Source: Deltaproteobacteria bacterium (GTDB lineage: Bacteria; Myxococcota_C; UBA6777). Taken from it: a stretch of 60,790 bases of DNA. Below, piece by piece: positions 13,621-45,667 of the stretch (position 1 is the stretch's first letter; each line of letters begins with the position of its first letter). Below the pieces are notes generated by a model. The model made no database searches and was not told where the DNA came from. It saw nothing but the letters and a program-made list of their open reading frames with translations. Both the position numbers and the translations under genes were made by a program. The stretch lies in NCBI GenBank assembly GCA_002731275.1, contig PCBK01000020.1, forward strand, positions 1 through 60,790, given 5' to 3'.

Positions 13621-13689
13621 CTCGCTCACTCCACTTGACTCTGAGGACTTTGCAAACACCTTTTTCAAAAGGGATATTTTCAAAGGGTA

Positions 13690-14373: not shown

Positions 14374-14435
14374 ACTAGACTCTCCTTTCTATCCCCATCC
14401 CTTGACACACAAACCCCTCACGGCAAAGCAAAGCC

Positions 14436-16505: not shown

Positions 16506-16531
16506 AATTTGCGTTCTCCTGTTAGGTTGCT

Positions 16532-24829: not shown

Positions 24830-26014
24830 TCATATTTGGGCGATGCTGTGTTTCGTCAGGAAGACTTCGGACCAACGTCGCAAGACAATATCGCCTTCAT
24901 CGCGTTGTCCTCCCGTAATCCGAAGAAATACCCCCTCTTCCAGAGCAAATGATACACCAGGAAAATCTTTTGCGTATACAACAGCACAATCCTCTCCGTT
25001 TACAAGTTTTCCTGTAAAACCATATCCTCCTCGCAAGGCTTGAACTTGCACCTCTACGTCCTTGCTCTCTTTTGTCGAGGAGATATCCATCCAGTACGTG
25101 TCACAATATTGGCGAACGTCACACCAAGAACACATATCATTTTTCAAAGAGAGTGCGGGAACAGAACTCACGACTTCGAGGTAATGTGCTACTTTGATAG
25201 AGATCTCATCTTCCATGGTTATCAGTGTTTCAACATCGACTCCCCAACATCTCGTTTCATTGAGATAGTAGATTTCTGCACGGGCGGGTACAACGCCAGT
25301 ACAACTCCACCACAACAAACAGTAAAGCATCACCTGTTCTTTGTGGGTATCATGCACCTTTCCAGTTTTGTAATCCGCAATGACAACCTCCTCTCCTTCC
25401 TTATAGATGACATCTACATATCCACAAATAGGTATGTTCGGATGTTCCAGGTACACCTCCGAGAGCGAACGCTCTCGCTGTAATCGGTGTACCAAACTCG
25501 AAGCTCTGTCTCTTCTTGGATTCTGTTCTTTTGTTGTGTTCTTTTGTAAAGCACGATGAGCTTGCGAGGACAGACTTCTCAACTCAGCATGTTGATAGTG
25601 TTCTTGGAACAAACGAGCGCACTCGCGAAACACCTCATGGGGTGTTTTACGTATCACAACCCCTCTCCCCCGAGGGTGATTTTGCAACGTTGTTTGCAAA
25701 TGAGTGAGTTTTTTCTCAATGAATGTCAAAGGCTTTAATGTTTTGAGAACCTCACGAAACGCTGGACTCCTCCTCTTTGGAAAACCCACCTCCTTGAGCG
25801 CTTTAAACAACACCTCCAATACCTCATGGACAATTGTGCCAACCTCTGTGGCTTCGCTTGGCTTTGAAGGAAAACGCTCAAAATCTCCATATCTAGAACG
25901 CTCTAGCTGCCACTGTAGAGGGCAACGTTCGAGTACTTTTAGTGAGGAGTAACTGAGCACGGATCGGTTGGTTCTCCACTCCGTAGGACCTTGCAATGTG
26001 TACATATCGCTCAT
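24830..26014 (-). CDS. PD-(D/E)XK nuclease with Fe-S cluster motif (RecB/AddB/Cas4-like)
   Basis: 394 aa. His 63 (IVHEVLE), Asp 201 (GYVDVIY) and D214-x-K216 (IADYKTG) form the RecB-type nuclease core. Cys 31 (LERCPLQW) together with C295-x2-C298-x5-C304 is the four-Cys pattern that holds a 4Fe-4S cluster in AddB and Cas4 proteins. A small beta domain (about 325-380) follows. Known activity of the family: single-strand exonuclease or nickase on DNA ends. Last gene of the eight-gene operon. Its ATG overlaps the stop of the DUF1998 helicase by 4 nt (ATGA), so it is produced with it and probably acts as the operon's DNA-cutting subunit. Confidence 0.85.
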   Translation of the reverse strand: MSDMYTLQGPTEWRTNRSVLSYSSLKVLERCPLQWQLERSRYGDFERFPSKPSEATEVGTIVHEVLEVLFKALKEVGFPKRRSPAFREVLKTLKPLTFIEKKLTHLQTTLQNHPRGRGVVIRKTPHEVFRECARLFQEHYQHAELRSLSSQAHRALQKNTTKEQNPRRDRASSLVHRLQRERSLSEVYLEHPNIPICGYVDVIYKEGEEVVIADYKTGKVHDTHKEQVMLYCLLWWSCTGVVPARAEIYYLNETRCWGVDVETLITMEDEISIKVAHYLEVVSSVPALSLKNDMCSWCDVRQYCDTYWMDISSTKESKDVEVQVQALRGGYGFTGKLVNGEDCAVVYAKDFPGVSFALEEGVFLRITGGQRDEGDIVLRRWSEVFLTKHSIAQI

Positions 26015-29000
26015 CTTGAAGAACCATTGTCAATGAACTTCTCGAGCTTCCCACTGGCAGTTGGTAAATCAAACTCCAACTCGTAGGCATTCAAGCACTC
26101 TGCAAGCTCCATATCAAGCAGCGAAGCATCCAATACATCTGAAATACCGCTCTCAAGCGCGAGGAAAGGATGAATGACATCTAACCATAAATCCACCCCT
26201 TCCTTGATGTGGACAACCACAGGTATCTCAAGCTGCTCTTCCTCAATCAACATGTTTCGAGTGTATCGTACATTCTTCAGCTTCAACATGTCACATAACC
26301 GCTCTGTGAGATAAGCAGTACGTGTAGCATCTTGCACAGGAAGTATTCCACTCCGCACGTACTGAACCAGTGAAAGTCCAAGATGACGGTGTAATGCTCC
26401 ATGGTAGTGTTTATTTTGATAGCTACTCAAACAGTCATAACAAGAAGAATCGCAAGAACATCCTGACAAAATCGACTCTGCGACGGCAAAGATCTCCTCA
26501 AGAACACTAGGTTGACCAATACTGCGTGCATATCCCGCGCCGCCTGCGAGCTTATCATACAAGTAAATATCGGCGCAGTGACCATTCATGTCCTCGACAG
26601 GGCTCCAGTTTCCTAACAACTCACCTTCTTCGACTTGCAAGACACGACACGCAGCCAAACACAGCACTTCGACCAACGTCGTCAACGCTGAACGCCCCTC
26701 AGCAGATGTCACTTCGCACTTGAAAGGACGTGTAAACTTCAACCTCATCAAAATCACATCAGTGAGAAAACGATGGCCAAGGAAAAATGGTCCCACAGGG
26801 TGTCCATTACATACAACCCCTTCCTGCGTAGGATGCTTGTGTGGACGAACTTTTCCTTTCTTGTCAAACAAAACAGACTTTGTGAAATCTTTCCCGTATT
26901 TCGGTTCAGCTCGACCACAATCAGGACAAATCATGAACCCTCGATCTCCAAGACCTTTATTCACGACCACAAGAAAGTCGGGCCTCGCAACAGCCTGTAG
27001 TCGTTCATCAAAGCAGTGAAAATCCCAGTCTTGGATATGCTTGACCTCCATCCTCGCTTTTGAAGCAGAGCCCGCCCAATCCATCGACCCTCCGTCTGCT
27101 TTTTTGTCTTCGAGGTTGACATCAACAGCAAACCCCGGCGGGACCAAAAATGGCAAGCGAAACAACTCAACCTCCCCACATACAGGACAACAATCCCTGG
27201 GAATTGGCTTGGGAGCAACTTCGACATACCCACAATGGTCACACGCCAGATAGTGGGATGCCTCCTCAAGGAGTGTACTCAGTGAAGAGATATAGGGTGA
27301 ATACAACGCCGCCGAACGAAAACGTTTTTTGTCAATGACCAGCTCACGACCTGGTGCATACTCACTGAGCGCGATCTGCAAGTCTCGGCTCGGAGAATAC
27401 CGAAACTCAGGGCGGTGTGGAGACTTCCACGCCTGGCGTCCTTTCAAAACGTACAAGGAGACAATATCTGAAGGGAACGCATAGCGTGGAAAAATCCCTC
27501 TCTCAATGAAGGTCTGTAAAAGATTTTCCTTGAGACGATGTTCCAACACACCAATCTCAGCGACAGTGAGTTCATCCTCCTCTTTTTCGTACAGCTCGAG
27601 AGGAAGTTCTTTTCGCAACAACACCAGAAGCTGCTCAACACATGTTGTTACGACATCCTCTGTGTCAATCTCTTCACCCAAAGCATGACTGCAAGCAGGA
27701 GCCCATCGTCGAATCTCGTCCATCAGCTTTTGTTTATGAATAGCCAACCATTTCGAAAGTTTGACAAAAGAGCAGTCTTTTTTTTCGTCTAAGAAGTCCT
27801 CTACAGAACCAAGCGCCTCAAACAACTGAGAACGTTTCGTGCTGCCCTCAACCGCCTCGTGAAAAAACCTTTGAACGAGATACGCATACGCATGACGCCT
27901 CAGGATCTCTTGGTTCTCAACATACACAACGGGAGGACGCACATCTCCAGAGATGATCTTCTCGGGATTGTCGAAATAATACGAATCATGTGTCCAGCCA
28001 TGAGCGTACGTCATAACAGAGGCGATCGAAGAACCTCGACGACCAGCACGACCAGCACGTTGCTGATAGTTGGAGACATGTGGAGGCACATTCCTGAGCG
28101 CCACCGCACTCAGTTGACCAATGTCGATCCCAACCTCCATCGTCGTGGTACAGCTTAAGACATCAATCGAGGGTCCTTCTCCCACTGCGATATCTTGAAA
28201 GCGCAACTCATACTCTTCAGTCAGCGCGTAGGCTTCGCTATCATCGACATTTGACAGCTGCGCCGAGTGCTCCATCGCGACCAGACCGAAGGGCTCGGCG
28301 TTGCTCTCCGCGATTGCGCGCTTCACCTTGTCCCGGTAAAAGCCGGAGCGCGCATCCAACAGCAAAGGTGCGTGGTGAACAGAGATAAGTTGTCCACAAC
28401 AATTGGGACACACATGCCTTATATGATCGACATAGAGGCGGTTACACGTCTCACACTGAAACCATTCGTCATCCAATCGCATCTTCAACAGCAAAGAAGC
28501 AGGGTTGAGATATCGACCTCGATCGAATGTTCGCGTAAGTGTGCTCTTTCTCGCCAACTCGAAGAGCCAATTCGACACCTCTGTGTATGTAGCCTGCTCA
28601 GGTAGCAGCTTCTCCAAATATTCACGAAAGCGTCTTGGAATGATAGTGCTGTCCCTAAAGATCCCCATCGGCTTATCATAGCTTGCATCCGCAAGTGCAT
28701 GTCTCGATGCACCCGGAGGCATAAAGCAATTACGCTCCAGTTGTACTCTGATCCAATGACGCAATAGGATACGCGCTTCTTCATGGGATAATTTTGTAGG
28801 CAATGTACTCTGCATCGACTTCCAGATCTTTGAATTCACCTGGACTGTCGCCATCCCCAAAGACCACAGAGAGTAGAACTTAAAAGTAAACTCTGCGTAA
28901 AGCATCTTTGCATACGGCAATTTAGGGCTGATATAACCCTGTTGTGCAAGATTGAGCACCTCGACGAGCGTCTCCCCCGCAGCCAAACGCAAGTCATGAT

Positions 29001-31866
29001 GAAAGTCATCAGGTTTGGCCTCTGGGAACAAATCAATGTTGTACTCATTACACACCCACAATACAGCTGGATACAGACGATCAAGTCGCGGCTCTTGGCT
29101 CAGCCCCTCAAGCGCACGCGCAGCCAACACCAGCACTTGGCGAAAAGCATCTTTTGAATGGCTGGACTCCAACGCAGGCGCAAGACGAGCTGCTTTTTGA
29201 CGACCATCACTAAACACCAACACTTTTCGTCCTCTGTTTGGCAACACGATAGGCGAGTGTTGACTTCTTTTGATCTCTTGTAGTGACTTGATCTGTGGTG
29301 GTTGCTCCGCAAATTGGGTCTCGATGAGCGATGTAAAGGGAGGCTCACCGAGCGTTCGAAATGTCTGGAGCTTTCGTTTCTCTCCGGCCTCATAGGACTG
29401 ACATTCAGGACAACAAGTAAACTCGGCTTTTCTGCTGCCTTGCTGATGATCTCGAGGTAGCCAAATAGAACGAGACTCCTTCTCGTCAAACTGCATCTTT
29501 GGATCCAAAAAGCCCGTCTTCAAGTGGACGCGGACCTCTTCACAGATGGGACTTTGCTGGGGGGATGGCAAGAACTCTATCTTGTCAACACTTCCTTCTG
29601 GCTCGCCCCACAAGTAGTCCAGCTCTGCAAATGTCTGTTCCTTTCGTTTGTACGCAACCATATACGCCAACCCACAGCTACGGCAGGACGCCAACTCAAA
29701 CACGCGACTCTCACAAACATCACAGCGTTGTCGTGGTCCAGCAAACATCTTTCCAACAGGACTTGGTGCGCCTTCGTTTGCTGGACAATGGCGATTGATG
29801 CACGCAAACAACCCATTCAAACCCCGAAACATCATATGCAATCGCGTAGGGATCAAACCAGGCTCATCACTCTTGGGTTTCGCGAGCGTTCCCAATGTCA
29901 GCAAAACCTCTGTCGCACGACGACGTTCATCACTCTCAGGAAAGATTTTGTGTGCAAGTTCATCGAGTGAACACGCACTTCCCGATGTCTCAGCGAGGAC
30001 CATATTGACAACAGGCAGCCGCAATAGCCAACGATATAAGTTTCGAAACACTTCCTCTTCGGATTGAACAGACTCATGCTCTGCACCAAAGTACGCAAAA
30101 AGAGGCTGTAAAGCCCCCTGTAGTGCATCCACACTCGAAGCTTCATGTAAACCTTCCAAGTCAACATCGACCAGCGCTGATGCGAAGTCACCTTTCCCAA
30201 CGCCAACAGGTTGAGGGACCTCTCTCTCACTTGTGATCACCTGGAATTGTTCAGGTTTTTTCCCCGTCAAATCAGCAGAAAAACGACGCACGACCTCTTG
30301 CGCCTCCTCGCCAGAGCCCAAAGACGCACTTGTGCAGATGACCCGAAACTTTGAGGCGTCTCCAGAGATCCCCAAACGAGCAAGTAGACGACGTATTAAC
30401 AACGCGACCTCAGCGCCTTGCGCCCCTCTGTACATGTGCGCCTCATCGATGACGAGCACAAACTCACTGCCATCCTCAGCCAACCACTCCCTCGTCTGCT
30501 CAAACAACGGGCGCTCAAACGGTCTCATCAACATATACTCTAACATTGAGTAGTTGGTTACGAGAATATCGGGCGCTCCACCCTCACCCGTCGCAGGGTT
30601 GTGGATCATCTCATGCCTTGTAAATAACTCACTATCCTCTGGACCTGTGAGGAGTCTCTTGTCCCAATTTGGATCAGGTGCAAGTTGACCTTTTCTCTTC
30701 CCTCTCGTGATACGTCTCTCGCCGATATGCTCCTCTCCCAAGAATCGACGAAGGTCTTTGGCTGGATAGCGTCCTCTTGCACGTAATTCAGACTCCAACT
30801 CAGGTGCAAGATCCAAGTAATACCGAAGCAAAGGCTCAACACGTCCACCATCTTTTTGTCCCTTACGTGGACCAGGATAGCGTGTGCGACTCGTGTACAT
30901 TCCAAACAGTGGGTGGCGTTGGTTATTGGGCAACGCATGAAATATATCCCTCAGCTCAGCGTTCCCAAACAACAGACGCAAACGAGACAGTTGATCGTTG
31001 ACAAGCGCGTTCATAGGATACAGAATCAACGCCCGTACCGCGCGCTTTTGATAGCTCTGAGGCCGCGTCGATACCTCCTGGTACAGTTGACCCAGCAGCG
31101 GAATCAAAAAGCACTCCGTCTTCCCTGATCCCGTACCTGTCGCAACGATGAGATCTTTCCGGTTGGAGAAAAAATGTTGAAATGCATCCCCTTGATGCTT
31201 GTAAAACTGCGGATACAGTAAAGTCTTTCCACCTCCCCCCTCGACATGAACCTCCGTCAACTCCGACAAAAATTGCCCAAGCTGTTTGTCACAACCTAAT
31301 GACGTATACGTTTTGGATGAAAAGGGATACTTTGGTGTCGTCTCGATAAACGGCTCTTGTGCGATGAGTTTGCGATTCTCTGATGAACTCAACAACGATC
31401 GACGAGCCCGAATCAATGAAGGGTTCTTAAGAGGATATGCGCTCTCAATGTACGACTGTAACTGCTTTCTCAAACGTGCAAAGAGACGGGTGGGTGTGTA
31501 CTTGGAGTGTGTATGATCTTCGAAGAGACCATCTCCCTCCTGTATCATCTGAGGGCCATCTTTCCAAGGCTTTGTATGCTCATCAGAAGCAGGTCCAACG
31601 TCAGAAACGGGCTCCTGCTGCTTCATCCACGCCGCGAGTGTCGACGCGACTGCGTCATTTAATGCTGTATCATCAATACGTTCGATGAGATCATCAAAGT
31701 CTACCTCTTCCTTGAACAACTCATTCAAGAACGCAATGGTCACCTCTTTGATCCCCTCGAATGAAAACATCGCCCCTGGCTTGATCTTTCTGTCGCGAAC
31801 CCACTCGGCGATCTCCAAGTCGGCGAGTACACCATCTACAGAAAAAGGCTCTAATACGATCTTCAT
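26011..31866 (-). CDS. Giant DEAD/DEAH helicase with DUF1998 C-terminus (DruE/DrmA-like class)
   Basis: 1951 aa from the ATG at 31866 (GGGGGAG 6 nt upstream, 4-nt overlap with the preceding stop). A longer TTG frame to 31890 is less likely. Domains: residues 1-60 resemble a STAS-like domain (FSFEGIKEVTIAFLNELF). The helicase core has Walker A ATGTGSGKT (242-250), IDEAHMYRGAQG and, in the second lobe, QQRAGRAGRRG. Two or three zinc-ribbon-like pairs follow (CETCNRLY...CPNC, CDHCGY...CPVC). The DUF1998 end has YDKLAGGAGYA and CSCDSSCYDCL. Known: DUF1998 helicases are core parts of DISARM and Druantia. Size fits the DruE class better than DrmA, but partners differ. Confidence 0.87.
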   Translation of the reverse strand: MKIVLEPFSVDGVLADLEIAEWVRDRKIKPGAMFSFEGIKEVTIAFLNELFKEEVDFDDLIERIDDTALNDAVASTLAAWMKQQEPVSDVGPASDEHTKPWKDGPQMIQEGDGLFEDHTHSKYTPTRLFARLRKQLQSYIESAYPLKNPSLIRARRSLLSSSENRKLIAQEPFIETTPKYPFSSKTYTSLGCDKQLGQFLSELTEVHVEGGGGKTLLYPQFYKHQGDAFQHFFSNRKDLIVATGTGSGKTECFLIPLLGQLYQEVSTRPQSYQKRAVRALILYPMNALVNDQLSRLRLLFGNAELRDIFHALPNNQRHPLFGMYTSRTRYPGPRKGQKDGGRVEPLLRYYLDLAPELESELRARGRYPAKDLRRFLGEEHIGERRITRGKRKGQLAPDPNWDKRLLTGPEDSELFTRHEMIHNPATGEGGAPDILVTNYSMLEYMLMRPFERPLFEQTREWLAEDGSEFVLVIDEAHMYRGAQGAEVALLIRRLLARLGISGDASKFRVICTSASLGSGEEAQEVVRRFSADLTGKKPEQFQVITSEREVPQPVGVGKGDFASALVDVDLEGLHEASSVDALQGALQPLFAYFGAEHESVQSEEEVFRNLYRWLLRLPVVNMVLAETSGSACSLDELAHKIFPESDERRRATEVLLTLGTLAKPKSDEPGLIPTRLHMMFRGLNGLFACINRHCPANEGAPSPVGKMFAGPRQRCDVCESRVFELASCRSCGLAYMVAYKRKEQTFAELDYLWGEPEGSVDKIEFLPSPQQSPICEEVRVHLKTGFLDPKMQFDEKESRSIWLPRDHQQGSRKAEFTCCPECQSYEAGEKRKLQTFRTLGEPPFTSLIETQFAEQPPQIKSLQEIKRSQHSPIVLPNRGRKVLVFSDGRQKAARLAPALESSHSKDAFRQVLVLAARALEGLSQEPRLDRLYPAVLWVCNEYNIDLFPEAKPDDFHHDLRLAAGETLVEVLNLAQQGYISPKLPYAKMLYAEFTFKFYSLWSLGMATVQVNSKIWKSMQSTLPTKLSHEEARILLRHWIRVQLERNCFMPPGASRHALADASYDKPMGIFRDSTIIPRRFREYLEKLLPEQATYTEVSNWLFELARKSTLTRTFDRGRYLNPASLLLKMRLDDEWFQCETCNRLYVDHIRHVCPNCCGQLISVHHAPLLLDARSGFYRDKVKRAIAESNAEPFGLVAMEHSAQLSNVDDSEAYALTEEYELRFQDIAVGEGPSIDVLSCTTTMEVGIDIGQLSAVALRNVPPHVSNYQQRAGRAGRRGSSIASVMTYAHGWTHDSYYFDNPEKIISGDVRPPVVYVENQEILRRHAYAYLVQRFFHEAVEGSTKRSQLFEALGSVEDFLDEKKDCSFVKLSKWLAIHKQKLMDEIRRWAPACSHALGEEIDTEDVVTTCVEQLLVLLRKELPLELYEKEEDELTVAEIGVLEHRLKENLLQTFIERGIFPRYAFPSDIVSLYVLKGRQAWKSPHRPEFRYSPSRDLQIALSEYAPGRELVIDKKRFRSAALYSPYISSLSTLLEEASHYLACDHCGYVEVAPKPIPRDCCPVCGEVELFRLPFLVPPGFAVDVNLEDKKADGGSMDWAGSASKARMEVKHIQDWDFHCFDERLQAVARPDFLVVVNKGLGDRGFMICPDCGRAEPKYGKDFTKSVLFDKKGKVRPHKHPTQEGVVCNGHPVGPFFLGHRFLTDVILMRLKFTRPFKCEVTSAEGRSALTTLVEVLCLAACRVLQVEEGELLGNWSPVEDMNGHCADIYLYDKLAGGAGYARSIGQPSVLEEIFAVAESILSGCSCDSSCYDCLSSYQNKHYHGALHRHLGLSLVQYVRSGILPVQDATRTAYLTERLCDMLKLKNVRYTRNMLIEEEQLEIPVVVHIKEGVDLWLDVIHPFLALESGISDVLDASLLDMELAECLNAYELEFDLPTASGKLEKFIDNGSSR

Positions 31867-33968
31867 TTGATCTCCCCCATCACTTCCCAATCATCTGTGT
31901 CCAAACGTTCCAAAGCAGGATTATCTGTTTCATTCGGGTATATGACCATGAGTCCACGCATCGCACGGGTCATCCCGACAAATATCAACTTATTATAATC
32001 TCGACTCCGTTCTTCGAATTCAGCTTCTGTGAGCGTCTCCTTTGAAGGAAATGTCCCCTCACCTAACCCACATATCACAACAGCGGGGAACTCCAACCCT
32101 TTCGCAGAGTGAAGCGTCAACACCTTCACTTCGGGTGTAGAGATATCCAACTCTCGCCCCTTGAAGAAACGAGCTGGCACACCCTGCTCTGTGAGTGCTT
32201 TGGCGACAAGCTCCCCCACGTCGGATTTAGGAACCAGCACACCACATGCACCGACCTTCAAGCGAAGGTGCTTGGACATTTGACGGACGAAACGAGCTGC
32301 CCAAACAGCCTCTTCCTTGCCAGCATCACAACGAATGAGCAAAGGCATCGGTCCATGATGTATACAATCCGATCGACCTAAGTCTTCGGATTCTTCTGAC
32401 TGTTGTAATGGGAGCGCAGCTTGTTCAATTTCGAACGTCGAACGGTAATTGTGCTTGAGATAACGTGTGCGCCCCTTAAACTGAAGTGCGGGATGGATCG
32501 AGTGGAGTGATTGACCTTTTGTGTGGATGGATTGCTTCACATCAGCCGCAAAGAAGATCCCATCAGGTTCCTTTGCAAGCTCCGCCAACAAGGCGAGCGC
32601 AACAGGAGAAAAGTCTTGCGCTTCGTCGACGATGACAAAGTCAAAACGCTTGGCATACATGCCTTCCTTGACCGCATCAAGCGCTTTTTGTCGAAGCGTC
32701 TCCCAAGAGACATACTCTCCCTGCTCCAGTTCTTTGGTATACACTTCGTACAGTGACCACACAGCCTCACGCATACTCTTGTTGAATCCAACTTTTCGAC
32801 CCGCTCGACTTGCAACGAGGTAAGCGTCCAAACTCTCAACTTGTTGCCCCTCGATCACCCAGCGAAACTCATCGAGGAGATAAGAGAGGGTCAGCTTTTT
32901 GATCCGCCGAAGACGTTTATTCTGTTCGAACTCATTGCGTCCAGGTGGCAACCATGTGCGAAGTATCCTCTCAAGTACATTCTTGTTGTACCCAGGAGGC
33001 ATCGTTTGGAAAGAGAAACCACTCTCCTTGATCACCTCGTAGACGAGCTGATCAATCGTTCGAACCTCCACCCTCCTGGCTTGCTGTTTGCTCAGCAAGC
33101 TATCGATGAGCTGTCCATTGAAGTGGGACAGTGAGCGCGTATATGTCGTAAATAATGCGGTCTCTTTCCCTGTGGACTTGGGCATCGTTAACAGTGAACG
33201 AATGCGGTATAGCGCCACAGTGCTCTTTCCCGTCCCAGGGCCTCCCTTGACCATCGTCGGCCCCTTTAATGCCCAATCACATAATTTGAGCTGCCGCGGA
33301 TCTAAGCGCAGCAAGAAATCTTGTAATTCGCCTTGCTTCAGCTTCACCAAATCTTGTGGCGCTTGGAGCACAAGGTCCGGTTGTTGCAGGACTTGATCGA
33401 CAGGACGAGGAAACAGATTGTCCATCACACGACTGAGTACCTTCTCAGGTACATTTGCGTTGAGCAAGGCCTCCTCACTTTCACAGTGGAGGAGATCTGG
33501 GATATAATCGTTGGGGATTTTGAGTTCTTCGAGCCATTCAACCTCTATCGAACGAGGCAAAGGTGTTGCATCGGGTACTTTTTTTGTCGCTTGTTCTTTA
33601 AAGGACCACAGCTTCTGCTTTTTGTGCTCGTTAAGTTGTGCTTCGTCGAGTAAGTCTTCCTCTTCATCAGGAAGAAACACAGGCTCCTCATAGTCAACTC
33701 TCCCCGTCGTATATGTCTTTTCCGAGCGACGTCGAATCGTCAAGAGGCGTATCCACTCATCACCAAATGTATAGAGAATACGAAAATTCCCCATCCTCAA
33801 GCGATAGATATCATGTTGTCCTTTGAGCTTCTTCTTCAGCTTTCCATCGGGAAATGGATCTTTGACAAGTTTATCAATTTTTTCCCACAACATCTTCATA
33901 TCAGCGCTGGGAAACCCCATTACTTCACTTGAAAAACTCGGCTTCATGTTGAGCTCTCGAACTTTCAT
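31863..33968 (-). CDS. UvrD/Rep-type helicase with N-terminal RelE-like domain
   Basis: 701 aa from the ATG at 33968 (GGAGG 7 nt upstream), overlapping the previous stop by 1 nt (TGATG). Residues about 15-87 match the RelE/ParE toxin fold (DPFPDGKLKKKLKG, YRLRMGNFRILYTF, RRRSEKTY). After a linker comes a superfamily 1A helicase: Walker A GGPGTGKS (242-249), VDEAQDFS, LTLHSAKGLEFP, and the C-terminal YNKLIFVGMTRA. The helicase motifs look intact. The RelE-like part has no antitoxin gene beside it, so it may serve as an RNA- or ribosome-binding module rather than a free toxin. Confidence 0.85.
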   Translation of the reverse strand: MKVRELNMKPSFSSEVMGFPSADMKMLWEKIDKLVKDPFPDGKLKKKLKGQHDIYRLRMGNFRILYTFGDEWIRLLTIRRRSEKTYTTGRVDYEEPVFLPDEEEDLLDEAQLNEHKKQKLWSFKEQATKKVPDATPLPRSIEVEWLEELKIPNDYIPDLLHCESEEALLNANVPEKVLSRVMDNLFPRPVDQVLQQPDLVLQAPQDLVKLKQGELQDFLLRLDPRQLKLCDWALKGPTMVKGGPGTGKSTVALYRIRSLLTMPKSTGKETALFTTYTRSLSHFNGQLIDSLLSKQQARRVEVRTIDQLVYEVIKESGFSFQTMPPGYNKNVLERILRTWLPPGRNEFEQNKRLRRIKKLTLSYLLDEFRWVIEGQQVESLDAYLVASRAGRKVGFNKSMREAVWSLYEVYTKELEQGEYVSWETLRQKALDAVKEGMYAKRFDFVIVDEAQDFSPVALALLAELAKEPDGIFFAADVKQSIHTKGQSLHSIHPALQFKGRTRYLKHNYRSTFEIEQAALPLQQSEESEDLGRSDCIHHGPMPLLIRCDAGKEEAVWAARFVRQMSKHLRLKVGACGVLVPKSDVGELVAKALTEQGVPARFFKGRELDISTPEVKVLTLHSAKGLEFPAVVICGLGEGTFPSKETLTEAEFEERSRDYNKLIFVGMTRAMRGLMVIYPNETDNPALERLDTDDWEVMGEIK

Positions 33969-34987
33969 CAAGATACCTCCGCTTCAGATACAAACAACAC
34001 ACCCAATCTTCTCTCAAACAACCTCTGAAGCGCCTCAAAAGACGACCTCTTCAAAAGAAACTTCATAGGAAAAGTGTCTCTCATGACATCCTTGATCACA
34101 GATAAAAGATATCGATACTCCGGTACTGGGAGCATATTTTCGAGATACAGTAGGACATCCTCTTCAGATCGACCCTCCACATGAATCTTTGTCGGCACAT
34201 CGTTCAATCGATCAAAAGCATAACATAAGCGGGCGACATCTTCTGGCATACATTCGAGAAAACGAATCCCTTCCCCTCCAGGCTTGGCCAATACATGCCG
34301 ATACCCACGATCAGCTCGAACACGCAGCAAAGAGAAGGTGCACAGTTCATCGACCCCCTCCCAGCAACGATATTGAAGCCTATCTTTCGTAGGTTGGTAA
34401 CATTGAGGACGCAGCTCACCAAAGATCTCCCCTAACGATGCGACCTCCTCCGCAAGTTCAACACGGGCTTCCCACGAAGACAACCACTTGTCATCTACAA
34501 CATCAGCATCGTCGAGTCCAAGCCAATCAGCCAATGTGATCACTCCTCCACCAAGCTGCTCGATCTTCTCGGTGCAAAGAGCAAGCTCACGTGAAACTCG
34601 ACAGTGTCCTGCGCTCTCAAGAGAGAGACCCAACAACTCCTCCAACATCGAGGTAGGAAGCGCACACAATACACGAATGTGTTCGTCAGGAAAAACAACA
34701 CCTCGCAAAGGCGCACCCGCAAGAATACCATATCCTCCAGTGAGAATGTCTCCTTGAAGAAGCAATTGGTTGAGCAGCTCGTTTGCGTGCTCTTCTGTGA
34801 TAGAGAAGAAAGGATCTGCAAACGCCAAAACACGCTTGAGCAAGACACGACGTGTGAGGCTTTTGTGCGCCGCAAGTTCGTGAAGGAGTAATTCAACAAC
34901 ACACCGTTCATCAGACCATGTACGCTTGAAGCCGTAATATGACCTCGACTTTTCAGCCATGTCCGTTGATGTAAGAGCCTTTATCAT
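33968..34987 (-). CDS. Uncharacterised operon protein, probable N-terminal winged helix
   Basis: 339 aa from the ATG at 34987, which has GAGG 6 nt upstream and lies 7 nt after the stop of the Lhr-like gene. A TTG frame extends to 35047 but would lie inside the helicase gene. Residues about 30-100 (RRVLLKRVLAF...ITEEHANELLNQLLLQGDIL..GYGI) have the helix-helix-wing look of a winged helix domain. The rest is acidic and gives no family. It is fixed between two helicases in a coupled operon, so a DNA-binding or adaptor subunit is likely, but the exact role is unknown. Confidence 0.72.
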   Translation of the reverse strand: MIKALTSTDMAEKSRSYYGFKRTWSDERCVVELLLHELAAHKSLTRRVLLKRVLAFADPFFSITEEHANELLNQLLLQGDILTGGYGILAGAPLRGVVFPDEHIRVLCALPTSMLEELLGLSLESAGHCRVSRELALCTEKIEQLGGGVITLADWLGLDDADVVDDKWLSSWEARVELAEEVASLGEIFGELRPQCYQPTKDRLQYRCWEGVDELCTFSLLRVRADRGYRHVLAKPGGEGIRFLECMPEDVARLCYAFDRLNDVPTKIHVEGRSEEDVLLYLENMLPVPEYRYLLSVIKDVMRDTFPMKFLLKRSSFEALQRLFERRLGVLFVSEAEVS

Positions 34988-34994
34988 CGCAACC

Positions 34995-37900
34995 TCACGC
35001 CATGAAATCGTTGAGAAATTCTTCAAATAGCAGAGAGTGTGCCTCAAACATCATCTCATCGAAATCGTTGGGTCTTCGACGCAAACGCTGTCTAGACTTG
35101 TACATCGTCCACACCTTTCCATCTGTCACAAAGATACGTTTATACGACGCTCTTCTGGCGATCAAACCGAGCGTATGAAGCAACGAGTGCCCCTTCTCAA
35201 TGCTGACGAGATCCTGTCCCTGCGCCACAACAAAGAGCAGCGCAGAACACTCAAACCGCCCTCTTTTTCCATGATATTGGAAAGCATGAAGTTCTCGCTG
35301 AAATAACACACGTTCATCTTCAACATCTAACGCGACATGAACGCTTCGATACCCCAACATATACGTCACTTCATCGATCCACGTGCCCAAGTGATACCGA
35401 TCGTGAAGAGACTCTCTTGTCACAGCCCAACTACCTTCCAGCCGGACCTTCGCAGAGGACAAAAATCCACTCGTGAGTTCTTTCTCGTGTTCAAGCACCA
35501 ACGTGTGACCTTCTCCGCACGTGATCGAGAGTTGACCGCGCAAAAGATGCTCCAACTCTCTCGCAAATGAACCCAACCATGCAATCACATCAAGAGAACC
35601 TTCGGCTCCACACCTTCCCAAACTGAATGGACGTGTCTCTAGACCATACCACTCACCCTTCGCACTCCAGTAAGGCGGCAGTGTGAGCATCCATGTCTGT
35701 CCATCCCGCGTAAGCCGAGAGAGGTCCATTCGTATACGACATTCTCCTCGGAACTCCGTCGTCTGAAGTGCTTCCTTCGCCCCAAAGATCATCGCGAAAC
35801 GATAAGGGATGAGAGCTGGCTCGTATTGCTCGACGAGCTCGACAAAGAGACGCTCTGATGACCATTCACCATCTCCTGAGCAGGCTTCGATACCGTACAT
35901 CCCCTGCTCCAAACCCCCCAATGCAAAGTGACTGCCTTGTCTCAAATCGACGTCGTGCAGTTCGACTTCCTTTCCAGAGGCCACAATCACAGTGACACCG
36001 CCTACAGCAGAAGGTTCATGACAGTTCAATGAAACATAGAGGGGATCGTCCACAGCATAACGTTGTAAAAGCTGCCCCTTCGAAGACATACGATACGACC
36101 GAGCCGAGAAAGTAGGTCGCAACGTCAACATCTCTTGCTTGGCGAAAAGTCCAAGTGATTCGAGTCGCTCAGACCACGCCTGATCGCGCTGTTCAGGGAG
36201 CAACCAAGATAAAACACACCAATCGCCCTCCCACCAAGCCACCTCTTCTTCATCAAGTTGTCCTACCAGCGCAGGAGGTACCAACACAAAGTATTGTTGC
36301 CCCACAGACAATACGTTTGACCGCACAATGCGACCCATACCACTCGCATCTTCCTTGAATACAGTCACAACCTCTTGAGAGAGCCCCTCCAAGCGGAGTG
36401 TAGAGAGCGCTTCTTGCACATCCTCATCATCCTCAAAACCATCTGCTGTAACGATGTACGACTCCACATCAGGTGGAACACTCTCAAACCAACAACCATT
36501 TCGCAGGTTTGACGCCAACATTCGTATCGTCATCTCCCCAGCAGTCACCGTGAGCACACGGATAAAACCCAAGAGACCCTGTAACGGAGAAAACTCGATC
36601 GACAATCCACCTCTATCAGCAGCCCTCATCACAAAGGCGCTTGTCCAATCCACGTCACGGCGTTGGGTCTCTGGTGCGACTTCAGAGGTTACCCGTTCAT
36701 CGAAAAAACCAACGAGTGCACGAGACAAAAACATCCCTTTGCGTTCGCGCTTTTCACCAGGCGTCAGAGACTTTCGCTCCAGAGAAGACCTCGTCTGAAC
36801 GCGGATATACGGACGCTCTAAGGTGTCCAAAAAGGACGCAAGAACAGTGACTTCATCATCCTCTGAGAGAGAGATGTCTGGATAACGCGTCTTATCCTTG
36901 TTGAGAGAGCAAAGGGTCGCACCTTCGCGGCCTCTCTTGCTCAAACGCTTGACGGCGTAGTGACCGAATTCAGGATCGAGACCTGCTCCACGAAGCAAGA
37001 CGATCGGCTCATCACCGCCACGACTCGGACCAAACTCAAAGACGACGTAGGCTCCATCTTTGAGCCCAGACCTGCCATCATCCATACTGTGGCCAACGAT
37101 CTGCGCAACAAACATTTTGTTTGTGAGAGACCAGCGTTCGGAGTGGAGCTTCACCCAACCGAGAGGCTCAACATACTGTGAAGGTGCTTTGTCTCCCCAC
37201 TCACCACCAGGTACAGAAGCCGCGACAGCCTTCAGCGAATACACAGGTAGATGTGTCTTATATTGCTCTTCCTCCGAAGGCTCGTCTTCCAAGACGAGTT
37301 CTTCTAAATCAATATCTTCCTTGACGTCCTCCTTTTGGTTGCGTTGGTCAGGCTGCTCTGTAGGGACAGCTTGTCCACGAAATTGATTCAAAAAGGTCTG
37401 TGTTTGGGGGAAGTCCAGCAGGAAAGAGCCTATAAACTCCATTGATTGGGCTTTGGGCAAGACCTTCTGGAATTTGCTCAGGCGATAATCAGGGAGACGA
37501 CTCATATACTTATCAAGCAGCCGATCATCACGCCAAAATGACGGTGAGATAAGAGTCTTTAGCACCTGTTTGATACGCTCACGTTGAGCGAGTCCTGCTT
37601 TGATCTCGAGCTTGAAGTTATCCGCTCGTACAGTCCAACCCCCTTCAATGTTGATGGCATATCGCAAGGTCTGATTGACCTTTCCTCCGGCAAACGTCCA
37701 CCACGTTGTCGAATCTTCTGTAAACGCAAGCGCTGGACCTGTTGTCTCAAGAACAGCCTGCAGATCAGCACGGAACTCTTTGAGGACATCGAGCGCGTTG
37801 GACTTCACGTACTTGAAGGCTTCGTTTGAGAGGATGATATCGCGTATCTTTTGGCAGATCTCATAGCCTAACAATTGAGGGATAAAACTCGTCCATTTTG

Positions 37901-39482
37901 GTTGTGTCCCGAATGTACCGGGCTTCACATACACAGCTCTCTCTGCATGGTCGATACGGATGACATCCCAAGGCCTCCCACTCAATAAAAAAGAACTACT
38001 GTCTTCGTAGAGTTGATCCACAAAGGATTGTTCGAGTGAGCCGACTTTATGGCGTGCAGTGTTCTTCACCTCATAGAGGAGTGGCGTTGAGAAGACAGCA
38101 TACATATCCATAAAATTCTTGCGCCCGAAGAGTTTTTCGGCTTTTTCACCCATCACTAATAAACCGGAGACTCGATCCAAAGACCCATCCTGGATCATCC
38201 ACTTGATGAGCTCCTTGAACTCGTCCTTTTGGATGCCTGAAAAATCGGGAACACTCGACAGATGCTCCCAAAGTGCAGAGGCCCCAATGCCTTTGGAGGC
38301 CAGACACATCGCGAGGACTTGGTGTACGAGTACAGGCCAATGACGCGTGTCGATCTTGACATGCTCAACCCACTTCGACTTGGCGAGCTCGATCAGCGCG
38401 ATGGCTTGGAGAACAGACTCCTTGGAGGTGCAAAAGAAAAACGTGTTCGCGGCCTTCCCCTCTCGTCGCCCCGTGCGTCCCATCCTCTGCAAAAACGAAT
38501 TGACAGAGCTTGGTGCGTCAACTTGCAAAACTTTGTCGAGGTCACCAATATCGATCCCCAACTCCAACGTCGAAGTACACACAATACAGGCCGCGCCCCC
38601 TTCCTGAAAGTGGGCTTCAGCCTCTTGTCTCTCCTCTTTCGAGATAGAGCCGTGGTGCACATACATATCCACATGGCGAGAGGCCAATCGACGACCGATG
38701 TTCTCAGCGAGGCTGCGACTTTGGCAAAAAAGCAAGGACTTCACTTCGCGGGCAGACGCCGCAGCAGACAAAGCAAGCTCAGGTTCAGTCTCTCTATACA
38801 CAATGGACAGTTGTCGTCTAGAAGGCTTAGCGGGTGGGTCGATGACGATCCCCTCACGACTTGAATCACTCCCTATCCAATCGAGGATGTCATCGGGGTT
38901 GCCAACTGTCGCGCTCAAACCAATCCTCTGCACATCAAAACGAGAGAGGCGCATAATCCGCGCCAACACACTCCGTAGATGTGCCCCCCTATCCGAACCT
39001 GCGAGTGCGTGAATCTCATCGATGATCGCAAAACGCAGATTCGAGAAGATCTTTGTTTCGTCTGTTTTCTCAGAGATACACATCACCTCCAAGGACTCAG
39101 GTGTCGTCATCAATACAGTCGTAGGTCCTCGTAGGAACTTCTTTTTTTGGCTGGCTTTTGTGTCACCATGCCAGACAAAACGGTCCAATCCAACCATCCC
39201 AGTGTAGGTCGCGAGTCGGTCCGCTTGGTTGTTCAACAACGCCTTGATCGGCGCGATGTACAGAATCTGCACCCCCTCTTCTTGTCTCGATAACACCTCG
39301 GATAAGGCAGGAAAGAACGCCGCTTCTGTCTTTCCGCCTGCGGTAGGAGCGAGGATAATTGCATCTTTCCCGTCGAGCAGTGCCTCACCAGACAACTCCT
39401 GCACAGGACGCAATGAGCTCCAACCCAATGTCCTGACAATCGCCTCTTGAAGCAGCTCGTGAAAACGGGAAAAAACGCTCAC
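34995..39482 (-). CDS. Lhr-like DEAD/DEAH helicase fused to S24 (LexA-like) peptidase domain
   Basis: 1495 aa. GTG at 39482 overlaps the brxD stop by 4 nt (GTGA) with AGGAGG 7 nt upstream. In numbering from the alternative GTG at 39485: Walker A APTAGGKT (46-53), DEIH (156-159), SAT (191-193), QRMGRTGR (333-340), then an Lhr-type middle to about 700 and an acidic linker. Residues 790-850 are an S24 peptidase: VGHSMDD with Ser 800 and YAVKRLSK with Lys 846, the Ser-Lys dyad of LexA-type proteases. The last 600 residues are unassigned. Known: BREX type 2 pairs BrxD with an Lhr-like helicase, BrxHI. This protein is much longer than a plain Lhr core. Confidence 0.85.
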   Translation of the reverse strand: MSVFSRFHELLQEAIVRTLGWSSLRPVQELSGEALLDGKDAIILAPTAGGKTEAAFFPALSEVLSRQEEGVQILYIAPIKALLNNQADRLATYTGMVGLDRFVWHGDTKASQKKKFLRGPTTVLMTTPESLEVMCISEKTDETKIFSNLRFAIIDEIHALAGSDRGAHLRSVLARIMRLSRFDVQRIGLSATVGNPDDILDWIGSDSSREGIVIDPPAKPSRRQLSIVYRETEPELALSAAASAREVKSLLFCQSRSLAENIGRRLASRHVDMYVHHGSISKEERQEAEAHFQEGGAACIVCTSTLELGIDIGDLDKVLQVDAPSSVNSFLQRMGRTGRREGKAANTFFFCTSKESVLQAIALIELAKSKWVEHVKIDTRHWPVLVHQVLAMCLASKGIGASALWEHLSSVPDFSGIQKDEFKELIKWMIQDGSLDRVSGLLVMGEKAEKLFGRKNFMDMYAVFSTPLLYEVKNTARHKVGSLEQSFVDQLYEDSSSFLLSGRPWDVIRIDHAERAVYVKPGTFGTQPKWTSFIPQLLGYEICQKIRDIILSNEAFKYVKSNALDVLKEFRADLQAVLETTGPALAFTEDSTTWWTFAGGKVNQTLRYAINIEGGWTVRADNFKLEIKAGLAQRERIKQVLKTLISPSFWRDDRLLDKYMSRLPDYRLSKFQKVLPKAQSMEFIGSFLLDFPQTQTFLNQFRGQAVPTEQPDQRNQKEDVKEDIDLEELVLEDEPSEEEQYKTHLPVYSLKAVAASVPGGEWGDKAPSQYVEPLGWVKLHSERWSLTNKMFVAQIVGHSMDDGRSGLKDGAYVVFEFGPSRGGDEPIVLLRGAGLDPEFGHYAVKRLSKRGREGATLCSLNKDKTRYPDISLSEDDEVTVLASFLDTLERPYIRVQTRSSLERKSLTPGEKRERKGMFLSRALVGFFDERVTSEVAPETQRRDVDWTSAFVMRAADRGGLSIEFSPLQGLLGFIRVLTVTAGEMTIRMLASNLRNGCWFESVPPDVESYIVTADGFEDDEDVQEALSTLRLEGLSQEVVTVFKEDASGMGRIVRSNVLSVGQQYFVLVPPALVGQLDEEEVAWWEGDWCVLSWLLPEQRDQAWSERLESLGLFAKQEMLTLRPTFSARSYRMSSKGQLLQRYAVDDPLYVSLNCHEPSAVGGVTVIVASGKEVELHDVDLRQGSHFALGGLEQGMYGIEACSGDGEWSSERLFVELVEQYEPALIPYRFAMIFGAKEALQTTEFRGECRIRMDLSRLTRDGQTWMLTLPPYWSAKGEWYGLETRPFSLGRCGAEGSLDVIAWLGSFARELEHLLRGQLSITCGEGHTLVLEHEKELTSGFLSSAKVRLEGSWAVTRESLHDRYHLGTWIDEVTYMLGYRSVHVALDVEDERVLFQRELHAFQYHGKRGRFECSALLFVVAQGQDLVSIEKGHSLLHTLGLIARRASYKRIFVTDGKVWTMYKSRQRLRRRPNDFDEMMFEAHSLLFEEFLNDFMA

Positions 39483-40792
39483 CACACATCCTCCTCAGGG
39501 ACCAAATCGTCTTCTACATCCTCAGTCGTCTCTGGCACCTTCTCTTCAAGTCGTTCCCGCTCTGTGTCTGTCATCGACGAAGGAGAGAAATTATACTCTT
39601 CATTAGGGACATACTCTTCGTGCTCATCGACGAGATCCATGACCCCTACAAACTCGCGTAAGAATTGCCTTGGGACGATCCCAACATCCCCCTTAAAGCC
39701 CTTGGTGACTTGTCCAACCAATTGCTCGATAAAAGAATCCGTGACCTTTTCTTCGAGGATAGCCCGTTTGGCAGACGGATAAATGGAACGCAATCTCACC
39801 GCGACATTCCGCAATCGCTCCTCATTGAAGGGCGATAACTCGAGCTGTGGCTGCCGCATACTTGCAAATGCACCCTGTTTTTTAAACTCAATTCGTTGGT
39901 GAAGTGGTTCCAAGCCTGCGACACCCTTTTTGGTGTCAAAGAACTCTTTTGTACCTGTGAAAATCCATAACAACCCAGGAAAATCGGAGGTCGCGTCGTG
40001 GATCTGGCGTAGACCATTTAGCGACTTTTTGCGAACATCCCTCCTCATTCGTAGGATGGTTTCAACCTCATCGACGACGATCAAGAGCCCTTTGTATCCT
40101 GCGGCTTTTACAATGGCGAGGACACCACGTAGATAATCGAGCGCGTCGCGGCTTGAGATGTCTCCCTTGATCCGGGCGAGTCTCTTGGCCGACGCCGAGA
40201 CATTCTGAGAGCCTCCAAGCCACGATAACAACGCCCCTGCATCCGCGAAGTTATTCTCTTGCTTGAGACGGAAGATCGTTTGTACAGCGCGCACAAAGTC
40301 CTCGGAGGCTTTCCCGCCTGTCAACGACAACAACTCTTGGTTGAGTCGATCGTGTACTTTATCATCAAAGTCGTCGGCCTCTTCATCTTCACCGACCTCG
40401 ATCAATCCATCTTCAATTCGACCGATCCACTGGTCCAAAATGTCACCAAACGCGCCTCGACCACATGTCTTTGTGGATAACTCTTGCATGACCTTTCTGT
40501 AGACGTCGTTGAACCTATGAAAATGTAGGTCGTTATCAGAGACGACGACAAAACTCGTCGCAAAACCTCGTTCACGGGCGTCGAGAGTCGCCATTTTAGA
40601 CATAAATGTCTTTCCACATCCATACCCACCACGTAGAAACTTGATCGCGCCTTCACTCGACTCTGCAAGTTCTATTTGACGATGAATTTCCTCTCTGACT
40701 TTTTCAACACCAACAGCAAAGTGCTCAAGGCCTTTATCGGGGACAGCTCCTTGACGAAGGCGCTCAAAAATATGCTCAGTTTCTCGGCTCAT
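39479..40792 (-). CDS. brxD: BrxD-type BREX ATP-binding protein (DUF2791)
   Basis: 437 aa. The opening IFERLRQGAVPDKGLEHFAVG and LRGGYGCGKT (Walker A, residues 55-62) are characteristic of the BREX ATP-binding family. Walker B is LLIVVDEVE (DE at 241-242). A late FTGTKEFFD segment fits the sensor region, and the tail is acidic. AGGAG lies 5 nt before the ATG, which overlaps the previous stop by 4 nt. Known: in BREX type 2, brxD sits with an Lhr-like helicase gene, as here. No PglX, PglY, PglZ or PglW gene lies in the window, so this is a BREX-derived module rather than a full BREX. Confidence 0.88.
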   Translation of the reverse strand: MSRETEHIFERLRQGAVPDKGLEHFAVGVEKVREEIHRQIELAESSEGAIKFLRGGYGCGKTFMSKMATLDARERGFATSFVVVSDNDLHFHRFNDVYRKVMQELSTKTCGRGAFGDILDQWIGRIEDGLIEVGEDEEADDFDDKVHDRLNQELLSLTGGKASEDFVRAVQTIFRLKQENNFADAGALLSWLGGSQNVSASAKRLARIKGDISSRDALDYLRGVLAIVKAAGYKGLLIVVDEVETILRMRRDVRKKSLNGLRQIHDATSDFPGLLWIFTGTKEFFDTKKGVAGLEPLHQRIEFKKQGAFASMRQPQLELSPFNEERLRNVAVRLRSIYPSAKRAILEEKVTDSFIEQLVGQVTKGFKGDVGIVPRQFLREFVGVMDLVDEHEEYVPNEEYNFSPSSMTDTERERLEEKVPETTEDVEDDLVPEEDVW

Positions 40793-41094
40793 AACATCTC
40801 CTTCTCTAACAAGGTTCTTCTTCTATCAGCATTCTCTTGTGCGTTTGCGATCCTCTTGTCCGAACCATGTGGGCTCTCCCCCTCCCAGCATAACACCGCC
40901 CCTTCGATGTTATCTTGGTATTGAGTTGCGTCTATAGGCTTCTTCTTGGTCACAAACAAGATGATCTTGTTGTCCTTTTTTGGTGTGATGACCCCTCTGT
41001 ACAGTGCGTGTGCAGAAGCATAGCCCCAAAGCTCCGCGAGGGTGTTTCGATTGTACAATTCACGAACGACCAGTTCTTCAAAAGAGACGGGCAT
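40789..41094 (-). CDS. 101-aa protein resembling the first half of a DUF3427 domain
   Basis: 101 aa with GGAGG 5 nt before the ATG. The segment LYRGVITP...ILFVTKKK...TQYQD...LCWEGES..GSDKR lines up with LRRIREGV...LLFVTLEK...TRYQD...FHWESQS..GSPTGQR in the DUF3427 region of the SauUSI-like protein on the other side of the intergenic gap. It is thus a stand-alone relative of a domain that in SauUSI-type enzymes is the likely reader of modified DNA. Ends in a 4-nt overlap with brxD. A modified-base or substrate sensor for the operon is plausible, but this is inference from an alignment done by eye. Confidence 0.68.
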   Translation of the reverse strand: MPVSFEELVVRELYNRNTLAELWGYASAHALYRGVITPKKDNKIILFVTKKKPIDATQYQDNIEGAVLCWEGESPHGSDKRIANAQENADRRRTLLEKEML

Positions 41095-41124
41095 ACCATC
41101 CTCCTTTCTTACCCCTGAGATATC

Positions 41125-42258
41125 TTAAAAGACTTCTCCTTTTTTCTCACGGATATATTTGAGTTTACCCTTCGCGCTACGAACACGGACACGAAAGGGT
41201 AGATGCTCCTGTAAGCTCTCAAGATCATTGCGAAGGCGACGCACCTTTCTTGCATTCCCTAGGATGATTGCAGCATCCTCTTCAGCCAAAGATCCACGTT
41301 CATCAAGTGTCTGAAAGAAACGCTTGTACTTTTTTGGGATATGCTTGAGCCAAGAAAGTCCTTTGTCACTCCTGACATCGACGTCATTAAGCAGCTCAGA
41401 AGAACCATTATGATCGTCTTTTATGAGAACCCCAAGAGCCTTTTCCCCTGCTTGAATAAAAGTATCTCTCCACTCTTCAACAAGGGACTTTGGAACTTTG
41501 TACAGGTGATTTGCCGTTTCAAAGTCAATCTCTCCCTTAAGGAGCGCCATCACCAACCACGCTTTCTCTTGTGCTGTCCAAATAGAGGAGGTTTGTGATG
41601 GGATAGAGCGAATCCTTTTACCAAACTCTCCCCAACGCATGATGACATCGAGTTGTGGATAGTTCTCAACCCCTAGTGTAAAATTGCTCAACAAAATCTC
41701 TCCACCATTACAAAAGAATCGCGTTGCGATGGTATTTTTCCGAGGACTCAAGATAAGGTACTCAATGTCATCCTCGTGAAACACTTCATGATAGCAGTAT
41801 ATCCCGTAAGTAAAGCTGTCGAACCTGGACTTAGAAAAACTATTGGTTTCAGGTACATAATCGACAAGCTGGCAACCTTTTGTGTTCCTGGTATTTGTCA
41901 TTGTAAAGTCGATTTGTGTCTGACCAAACCAACATAATACGACAAAATCCTCCCCCCACAACACGTTGTGAAAGTCGGAAGGCAATAATGCGGGAGGAAA
42001 CATCAGAATACGACCAGCGTTCGCAAGAAACGTGTCCAGTTCACGTTTACATGTTTTTTTCTCGAAGACATCGAAGGTCTCTCGATCATGAAAGGCGAGT
42101 CTCGGAGGAAAAATCAAAAACTGAAACTCACCAAACCCACCCGCGGCTTTTGTGGCGATGTTCGTCGCATCGATCATCTCATAGGAGATCTCACGTTGGC
42201 GAAAATACACTTGGAGGTCAAAATCAAGTCCTTGTCCAATCACACCAATTCGGGCCAT
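41125..42258 (-). CDS. Uncharacterised first operon protein with central HTH
   Basis: 377 aa with GGAGTGAG before the ATG. The first 120 residues (MARIGVIGQG..., FQFLIFPP, GRILMFPP) alternate strands and helices in a Rossmann-like way, without a clear nucleotide-binding motif. Residues 226-276 (WTAQEKAWLVMALLKGEIDFETAN...LVEEWRDTF) read as a helix-turn-helix of the kind found in transposase N-termini. A basic C-terminal part ends KLKYIREKKG. First gene of the eight-gene operon and nearest to the divergent promoter region, so it could bind DNA as a regulator or as a target-recognition subunit. No family recognised. Confidence 0.72.
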   Translation of the reverse strand: MARIGVIGQGLDFDLQVYFRQREISYEMIDATNIATKAAGGFGEFQFLIFPPRLAFHDRETFDVFEKKTCKRELDTFLANAGRILMFPPALLPSDFHNVLWGEDFVVLCWFGQTQIDFTMTNTRNTKGCQLVDYVPETNSFSKSRFDSFTYGIYCYHEVFHEDDIEYLILSPRKNTIATRFFCNGGEILLSNFTLGVENYPQLDVIMRWGEFGKRIRSIPSQTSSIWTAQEKAWLVMALLKGEIDFETANHLYKVPKSLVEEWRDTFIQAGEKALGVLIKDDHNGSSELLNDVDVRSDKGLSWLKHIPKKYKRFFQTLDERGSLAEEDAAIILGNARKVRRLRNDLESLQEHLPFRVRVRSAKGKLKYIREKKGEVF

Positions 42259-45663: not shown

Positions 45664-45667
45664 CATC

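Follow-up and report, generated by a model that had tools for sequence, protein, structure and literature searches.

A rare operon of the Druantia lineage with BREX-type front genes in a deltaproteobacterial genome

Introduction

Druantia, BREX and ARMADA are among the described defence systems closest to the operon reported here. In Druantia type I, the DruB, DruC and DruD proteins that accompany DruA and the helicase DruE are annotated in PADLOC as of unknown function. In Druantia III, DruE loads on 3' single-stranded DNA tails and forks and unwinds DNA of both kinds, acting as helicase-nuclease effector; DruH is the likely sensor, and the two partners of the system mix little (PMC13192584). 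ARMADA (types I and II, YprA-BrxHII-PglX, with RelE-GajB in type II) defends directly and non-abortively, and needs the RelE-GajB helicase and all its enzymes (PMC12458937). BrxD of BREX has been proposed as the loader of BrxHI (PMC12839542).

We analysed 60,790 nt of a Deltaproteobacteria bacterium (GTDB Myxococcota_C; UBA6777), positions 1 to 60,790 of the forward strand of contig PCBK01000020.1 (assembly GCA_002731275.1), hereafter the window. An eight-gene operon within it had been predicted from the letters alone to be an unnamed defence system built of BREX, Druantia-like and RecB-like parts. The parts and a gene order that recurs elsewhere stand; the eight-gene set as the unit, and the claim that the Druantia partners are missing, do not. 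The operon represents a new variant within the Druantia lineage, rare among the genomes searched, and matches no known named system; judged by homology and gene linkage, it very probably functions in anti-phage defence.

Results

Eight co-directional, translationally coupled open reading frames (g1 to g8) occupy the minus strand of the window from 42258 to 24830, checked by position and strand, and all eight frames are as originally predicted. A gap of 30 nt separates g1 and g2, g2 and g3 overlap by 4 nt, g3 and g4 by 7 or 4 nt, g4 and g5 lie 7 nt apart if g5 starts at ATG 34987, g5 and g6 overlap by 4 or 1 nt, g6 and g7 by 4 nt if g7 starts at ATG 31866, and g7 and g8 by 4 nt. The helicase and ATPase motifs are all intact. 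The host assembly consists of 200 contigs with 5.5% contamination; a false join between the BREX-like and Druantia-like halves is unlikely because G+C content is even across the operon region and the boundary lies inside g4, a single uninterrupted frame of 1496 codons.

Divergent from the operon is a gene pair (42550-46732, plus strand) encoding a 1037-aa PLD-ResIII-DUF3427 protein, scored by PADLOC at 859 bits as a Type IV methyl-directed restriction enzyme, and an uncharacterised protein of 354 aa; this is probably a second defence unit. Elsewhere in the window are large proteins of 640, 689 and 1458 aa with 5, 14 and 22 Stig1-type repeats, respectively (11761-20908, minus strand), and a further Stig1/RCC1 protein (288-3038).

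The front of the operon corresponds to the tail of a BREX locus: g1, g2, BrxD and a BrxHI that continues in one frame into the S24-DruB module described below. The first gene, g1 (41125..42258, minus strand; 377 aa), begins with about 205 aa of no recognised fold, followed by a SciP/DUF1153-like HTH (aa 217-276), in keeping with its prediction as an HTH protein, and ends in a winged-helix segment in common with BREX-6 PglZ (aa 292-372; PADLOC PglZ 7.9e-11; NCBIfam BREX_PglZ_6 2.9e-10). It is 29% identical over 58 aa (E 2e-6) to the PglZ encoded in G389, a Myxococcales genome whose BREX-6-like locus is complete and runs PglZ-BrxD-BrxHI; profile annotation found no g1 relatives in the other loci described below. 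The small g2 (40789..41094, minus strand; 101 aa) has no family match in PADLOC, Pfam or NCBIfam scans and is left without a family assignment. Its original reading as a DUF3427-like fragment is not supported, as it has no Pfam match to that effect and gives E=0.46 against the neighbouring DUF3427 protein.

The assignment of g3 (39479..40792, minus strand; 437 aa) to BrxD, an AAA+ ATPase of ORC/Cdc6 type, is upheld by PADLOC (544 bits) and by the NCBIfam equivalog (512.7 bits, cut-off 350). It carries a Walker A motif (GGYGCGKT, aa 55), is the sole BrxD copy in the host genome and is 65% identical to BrxD of the Myxococcales BREX-6 locus. The N-terminal part of g4 (aa 1-703; 37377..39485, minus strand) is the Lhr-like helicase BrxHI (825 bits over aa 3-703) with intact motifs (APTAGGKTE, aa 46; DEIH, aa 156), and its two halves are 61% and 43% identical to BrxHI of the same BREX-6 locus.

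The operon thus shares with BREX type 6 and type 2 the BrxD and BrxHI pair and a PglZ C-terminal segment; it differs in having no BrxC/PglY, PglX methylase or PglZ phosphatase domain, and in the S24-DruB module that follows BrxHI. PglX methyltransferase and BrxC/PglY were found neither among the eight genes nor in the main flanking ORFs scanned, and the PglZ phosphatase domain (PF08665) is absent from the whole host assembly; this agrees with the predicted lack of methylase, PglZ phosphatase and PglY/W, and of PglZ only the C-terminal segment is present, in g1. A BREX system split between this operon and another site in the host is rejected because the assembly has no PglZ and no second BrxD. 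Shango (SngA-SngB-SngC) likewise has a BrxD-like and BrxHI-like pair, but the BREX models score far higher (BrxD 544 vs 138.5 bits, BrxHI 825 vs 487), and SngA (TerB) has no match among the operon genes.

Behind BrxHI, g4 continues into an S24/LexA-like domain (aa ~740-905; 36771..37268, minus strand, approximate limits), so that the predicted Lhr-S24 helicase is recovered: PF00717 scores 23.8 bits against a cut-off of 23.3 when the C-terminal part is scanned alone. A putative catalytic dyad, Ser800 (GHSM) and Lys846 (YAVK), falls in the S24 motifs, and a loop A-(A/V)-A-A-S-x-P-x-G-E-W-G occupies the position of the loop that is cleaved in LexA/UmuD. Dyad and loop are conserved in all seven members that hold the domain, and Peptidase_S24 is matched in six of the seven that hold the region. 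The structure model is of low quality in the S24 region (pLDDT under 50), and profile searching of the PDB gave no LexA-type match.

The remainder of g4 (aa ~925-1496; 34995..36713, minus strand, approximate limits) is an Ig/FnIII-type beta-sandwich array with a C-terminal alpha/beta part. Its profile aligns with the DruB family (hhalign Prob 97.0, E 1.1e-10; reversed control 0.1%, reversed and unrelated controls at most 0.5%) and, at Prob 96.9, with a 955-aa protein whose gene separates DruA from DruD in other Druantia loci; it is a remote DruB homologue. A fold search with a model of the module returned generic Ig/FnIII matches only.

Next is g5 (33968..34987, minus strand; ~339 aa), a DruD-like protein whose family aligns over its full length with the DruD family (hhalign Prob 99.8, E 2.3e-28 over 322 columns). 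The aligned family sits directly upstream of DruE in Druantia I and is the one that PADLOC names DruD; g5 itself has no direct database match and is missed by the PADLOC DruD model. The winged-helix-like protein expected here is seen in the model (pLDDT 84.7) as an N-terminal WHB-type winged helix (Z ~12).

A 702-aa protein, g6 (31863..33971, minus strand), matches UvrD/GajB-type SF1 helicases (Walker A, aa 243; DEAQ, aa ~449) and, weakly, ParE/RelE at its N-terminus, where conserved K, R and Y residues are kept; it was correctly called a RelE-UvrD helicase and is ArmD-like in ARMADA terms. The giant DUF1998 helicase of the original prediction, g7 (26011..31866, minus strand; ~1951 aa), is a DruE-like YprA/DUF1998 SF2 helicase (PADLOC DruE1, 1582 bits) with GTGSGKTE and DEAH motifs, an MZB zinc domain and an N-terminal extension of ~130 aa. 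By eye, this extension (g7 aa 1-130, and the N-terminus of the L074 DruE) is a candidate STAS/DUF4325-type domain (LDFTGV...FLNALL). The last gene, g8 (24830..26014, minus strand; 394 aa), is the PD-(D/E)XK Fe-S nuclease that had been proposed, with PDDEXK_1 at 69.6 bits, active-site residues GxxD/DYK at aa 198 and 214, and Cas4/AddB-type Fe-S cysteines at aa 31 and 295-304. Aligned relatives keep its GxxD and D(Y/F)K motifs.

For relatives, bacterial genomes were scanned with a DruE profile and the loci then annotated by profiles. The scan gave eleven loci with g7 relatives 43-49% identical, all with the N-terminal extension in common; the remaining kept matches are 30-36% identical to g7. 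The S24-DruB module, g5, g6, g7 and g8, which we call the engine, are contiguous and co-directional in the window and in eight other genomes (G386, G394, G389, G388, G390, G392, G387 and G677, the last added after the DruE-profile scan). The g1, g2 and BrxD/BrxHI front is found in the window alone, so the co-occurrence expected of eight genes is seen for these five parts, with the front genes exchanged. Across the loci compared, identity to the window is 45-48% for both g6 and g7, 29-33% for g8, 27-37% for the DruB module and 23-27% for g5. The Xenophilus copy (G390; L032: 6531-17130) has g6 and g7 each split into two ORFs and is probably a broken system. Two more genomes keep only the DruB-, DruD- and DruE-like parts, and the short contigs L033 and L052 hold g6-g7 only.

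The S24-DruB module occurs in none of the 83 other DruE loci. DruA is present in 56 of those 83, and neither DruA (E up to 10) nor DruC has a match in the window operon or in any engine locus. Together g7 and its relatives form a single clade, with Druantia type I DruE as sister group (100/100 support), and their tree crosses phyla. A whole-genome search for the module added a single full locus from 377 Myxococcota; in two other groups, sampled at 395 and 399 genomes, it recovered nothing outside the starting set. The module is absent from four other genomes of the host's own phylum. Carriage on plasmids was rejected: the g4 C-terminus has no plasmid match, and full-length plasmid DruE matches are less than 37% identical. 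No stretch of the DruB module is conserved enough for a DNA-pattern scan of viral contigs.

The genes in front of the engine differ among relatives. In eight genomes the engine is preceded by a Type ISP methyltransferase, McrB and McrC, and six of the eight have a Snf2 helicase before the methyltransferase and McrBC; the contigs of G394 and G387 begin inside the methylase, and the Snf2 position lies beyond them. Four of the eight also encode a Tiamat-like TmtA to which another copy of the DruB-like part is attached. In L030, L034, L032 and L132/L133, the TmtA C-terminus is this second DruB-like module, beside a free S24-DruB protein. G386 encodes a distant BrxD-like ATPase and, after it, a fusion protein with a BrxHI-like helicase ahead of Snf2, so BrxD/BrxHI-like parts have met the engine at least twice; the BrxD/BrxHI front with a BrxHI-DruB fusion is seen once, in the window. 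In a marine Proteobacteria MAG (L124: 708-19964, minus strand, with L136), a BrxD-like ATPase, a BrxHI-Snf2 fusion (2159 aa), a Type ISP methylase, McrB, McrC and the engine form one co-directional run of ~29 kb.

In a Schekmanbacteria MAG (L074/L131: 763-18900), Zorya type I genes form the front: ZorA, ZorB, ZorC and a ZorD joined to the DruB-like part precede DruD and DruE; g6 and g8 were undetected at this locus. The ZorD part scores 321 bits to the solved helicase 8qy7, which carries only the name DEAD/DEAH box helicase in the PDB and which we take to be ZorD. A UBP9 contig has a Snf2-DruB fusion with g5 and g7. The DruB-like part is thus fused to BrxHI in the window and to TmtA, Snf2 or ZorD in relatives. 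In profile comparison, DruA and DruC do not match the McrBC-type front proteins. The Zorya-front locus falls inside the McrBC fronts on the DruE tree (100/100), which demonstrates at least one exchange of fronts. For the window, placed outside the McrBC group with branch support of only 85/83, the direction of its own exchange is uncertain.

With Druantia type I the operon shares a DruE-like helicase in the sister clade, a DruD-like protein upstream of it and a DruB-like module before DruD, and a g8-like PD-(D/E)XK gene also follows DruE in many Druantia I-like loci. This gene lies directly after DruE in about 19 such loci (L015, L016, L027, L038, L044, L062, L064, L065, L073, L082, L088, L089 and others), including a Meiothermus plasmid (L027:17412-18554) whose record has no such gene in its gene table. 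Unlike Druantia type I, the window operon has no DruA or DruC, an added S24 domain, RelE-UvrD between DruD and DruE, and an extra N-terminal domain on DruE, and the fronts are of BREX, McrBC or Zorya type. Homology of DruD, DruB and DruE, together with the clade, indicates that the engine is Druantia-derived, although, lacking DruA and DruC, it falls outside type I. Of the Druantia partners once thought missing, a DruD-like protein is present as g5 and a DruB-like one as the last part of g4; what has been replaced is DruA and DruC.

ARMADA has in common with the operon a RelE-UvrD helicase coupled to a YprA helicase (PMC12458937), and g6 presents the RelE-GajB feature of type II. The operon differs in having no BrxHII or PglX and a separate PD-(D/E)XK nuclease. 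In the tree g7 groups with Druantia I rather than ARMADA, a tentative placement since the ARMADA rows are long branches. The closest plasmid relatives of g6 adjoin an ARMADA-like YprA in Pseudanabaena. One Pseudanabaena plasmid (L024: 16109-28037) has two differing, convergent YprA-type helicases, one ARMADA-like with RelE-UvrD and the other nearer Druantia. The Schekmanbacteria relative joins Zorya type I and Druantia parts in a fused operon, whereas the published Zorya II-Druantia III synergy is between separate systems (PMC13192584). As predicted, the whole matches no known system: PADLOC, Pfam and NCBIfam return parts only, and a literature search with subscription papers and supplements outside its scope found no description of the combination.

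Discussion

We consider the operon to be, more likely than not, a chimeric anti-phage system of the Druantia lineage, in which an engine with neither DruA nor DruC is driven by a recruited BREX-6 tail and tied to it through the BrxHI-S24-DruB fusion. The most likely action is direct helicase-driven degradation of invading DNA. The order of loading, coupling, unwinding and degradation proposed here is drawn from work on Druantia III, ARMADA and the BrxD loader (PMC13192584, PMC12458937, PMC12839542). From family knowledge, g1 and g2 with a BrxD ring would mark invading or replicating DNA and load BrxHI on it; judging from the fusions and gene order, the DruB-like Ig array, likely an adaptor to the engine, would then dock BrxHI on DruD/DruE. 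By analogy with Druantia III DruE, DruE and the UvrD helicase would unwind the DNA, starting at 3' single-stranded tails or at forks, and the Fe-S nuclease g8, whose active-site residues are present, would degrade it. Given the absence of a methylase, self DNA is probably spared by DNA structure and not by a chemical mark. More speculatively, the RelE domain of g6 could be a back-up RNase, and the S24 domain a switch that cleaves itself in connection with ssDNA or RecA stress.

Abortive infection, in which detection of phage DNA intermediates by the helicases would lead the RelE-like RNase or an S24-controlled nuclease to stop the host, is an unlikely alternative, though the best placed of those considered. 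The conserved K, R and Y residues of the RelE-like N-terminus and the presence of an S24-like domain are what it would call for, but ARMADA uses the same RelE-UvrD type without host shutdown (PMC12458937), g8 is a nuclease of the DNA-processing RecB/Cas4 type, and neither g6 nor g8 was detected in the Zorya-front version.

It is more improbable still that two independent systems, a degenerate BREX-6 remnant (g1 to the g4 N-terminus) and a Druantia-like system, lie side by side and are co-transcribed, not cooperating. A remnant would fit the loss of methylase, BrxC and PglZ phosphatase domain and the reduction of g1 to a PglZ C-terminus, and neighbours do accumulate in defence islands. Yet BrxHI shares one reading frame with S24-DruB, the junctions overlap, the BrxD and BrxHI motifs are intact, and the fronts of relatives stand directly before the DruB module and are sometimes fused to it.

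YprA/MrfA, Lhr, UvrD and AddB-type nucleases also work in repair, and the RecB/AddB-, Lhr-, UvrD- and LexA-like (S24) parts of the operon could double as repair parts, but a DNA repair or stress-response operon in place of immunity is very improbable. The loci are rare and scattered (377 Myxococcota yielded a single new full locus, and two other groups of 395 and 399 genomes yielded no new one), the g7 tree crosses phyla, and the partner genes belong to defence (DruB/DruD, BrxD, McrBC, Zorya, Tiamat).

In relatives the same engine stands behind quite different sensors, so that sensors seem to be exchangeable in systems of this kind, and this stands out because the partners of Druantia III mix little (PMC13192584). 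Tentatively, and with rather less confidence than we place in the chimera itself, one DruB-DruD-DruE helicase-nuclease engine may be commanded by interchangeable sensors (BREX BrxD/BrxHI; Snf2, methylase and McrBC with or without Tiamat; complete Zorya ABCD) through an Ig-array adaptor that can be fused to any sensor ATPase, with a LexA-like self-cleaving switch. If so, DruA of classical Druantia would be just one more plug.

The engine loci link parts of BREX, McrBC restriction, Zorya and Tiamat to one common output, indicate DruB as the coupling piece, and may at present be annotated as partial systems only. They are natural domain-swap experiments that set an engine (DruB, DruD, DruE and the nuclease) against an exchangeable sensor, and through exchange of fronts they make sensing versus killing in Druantia directly testable.
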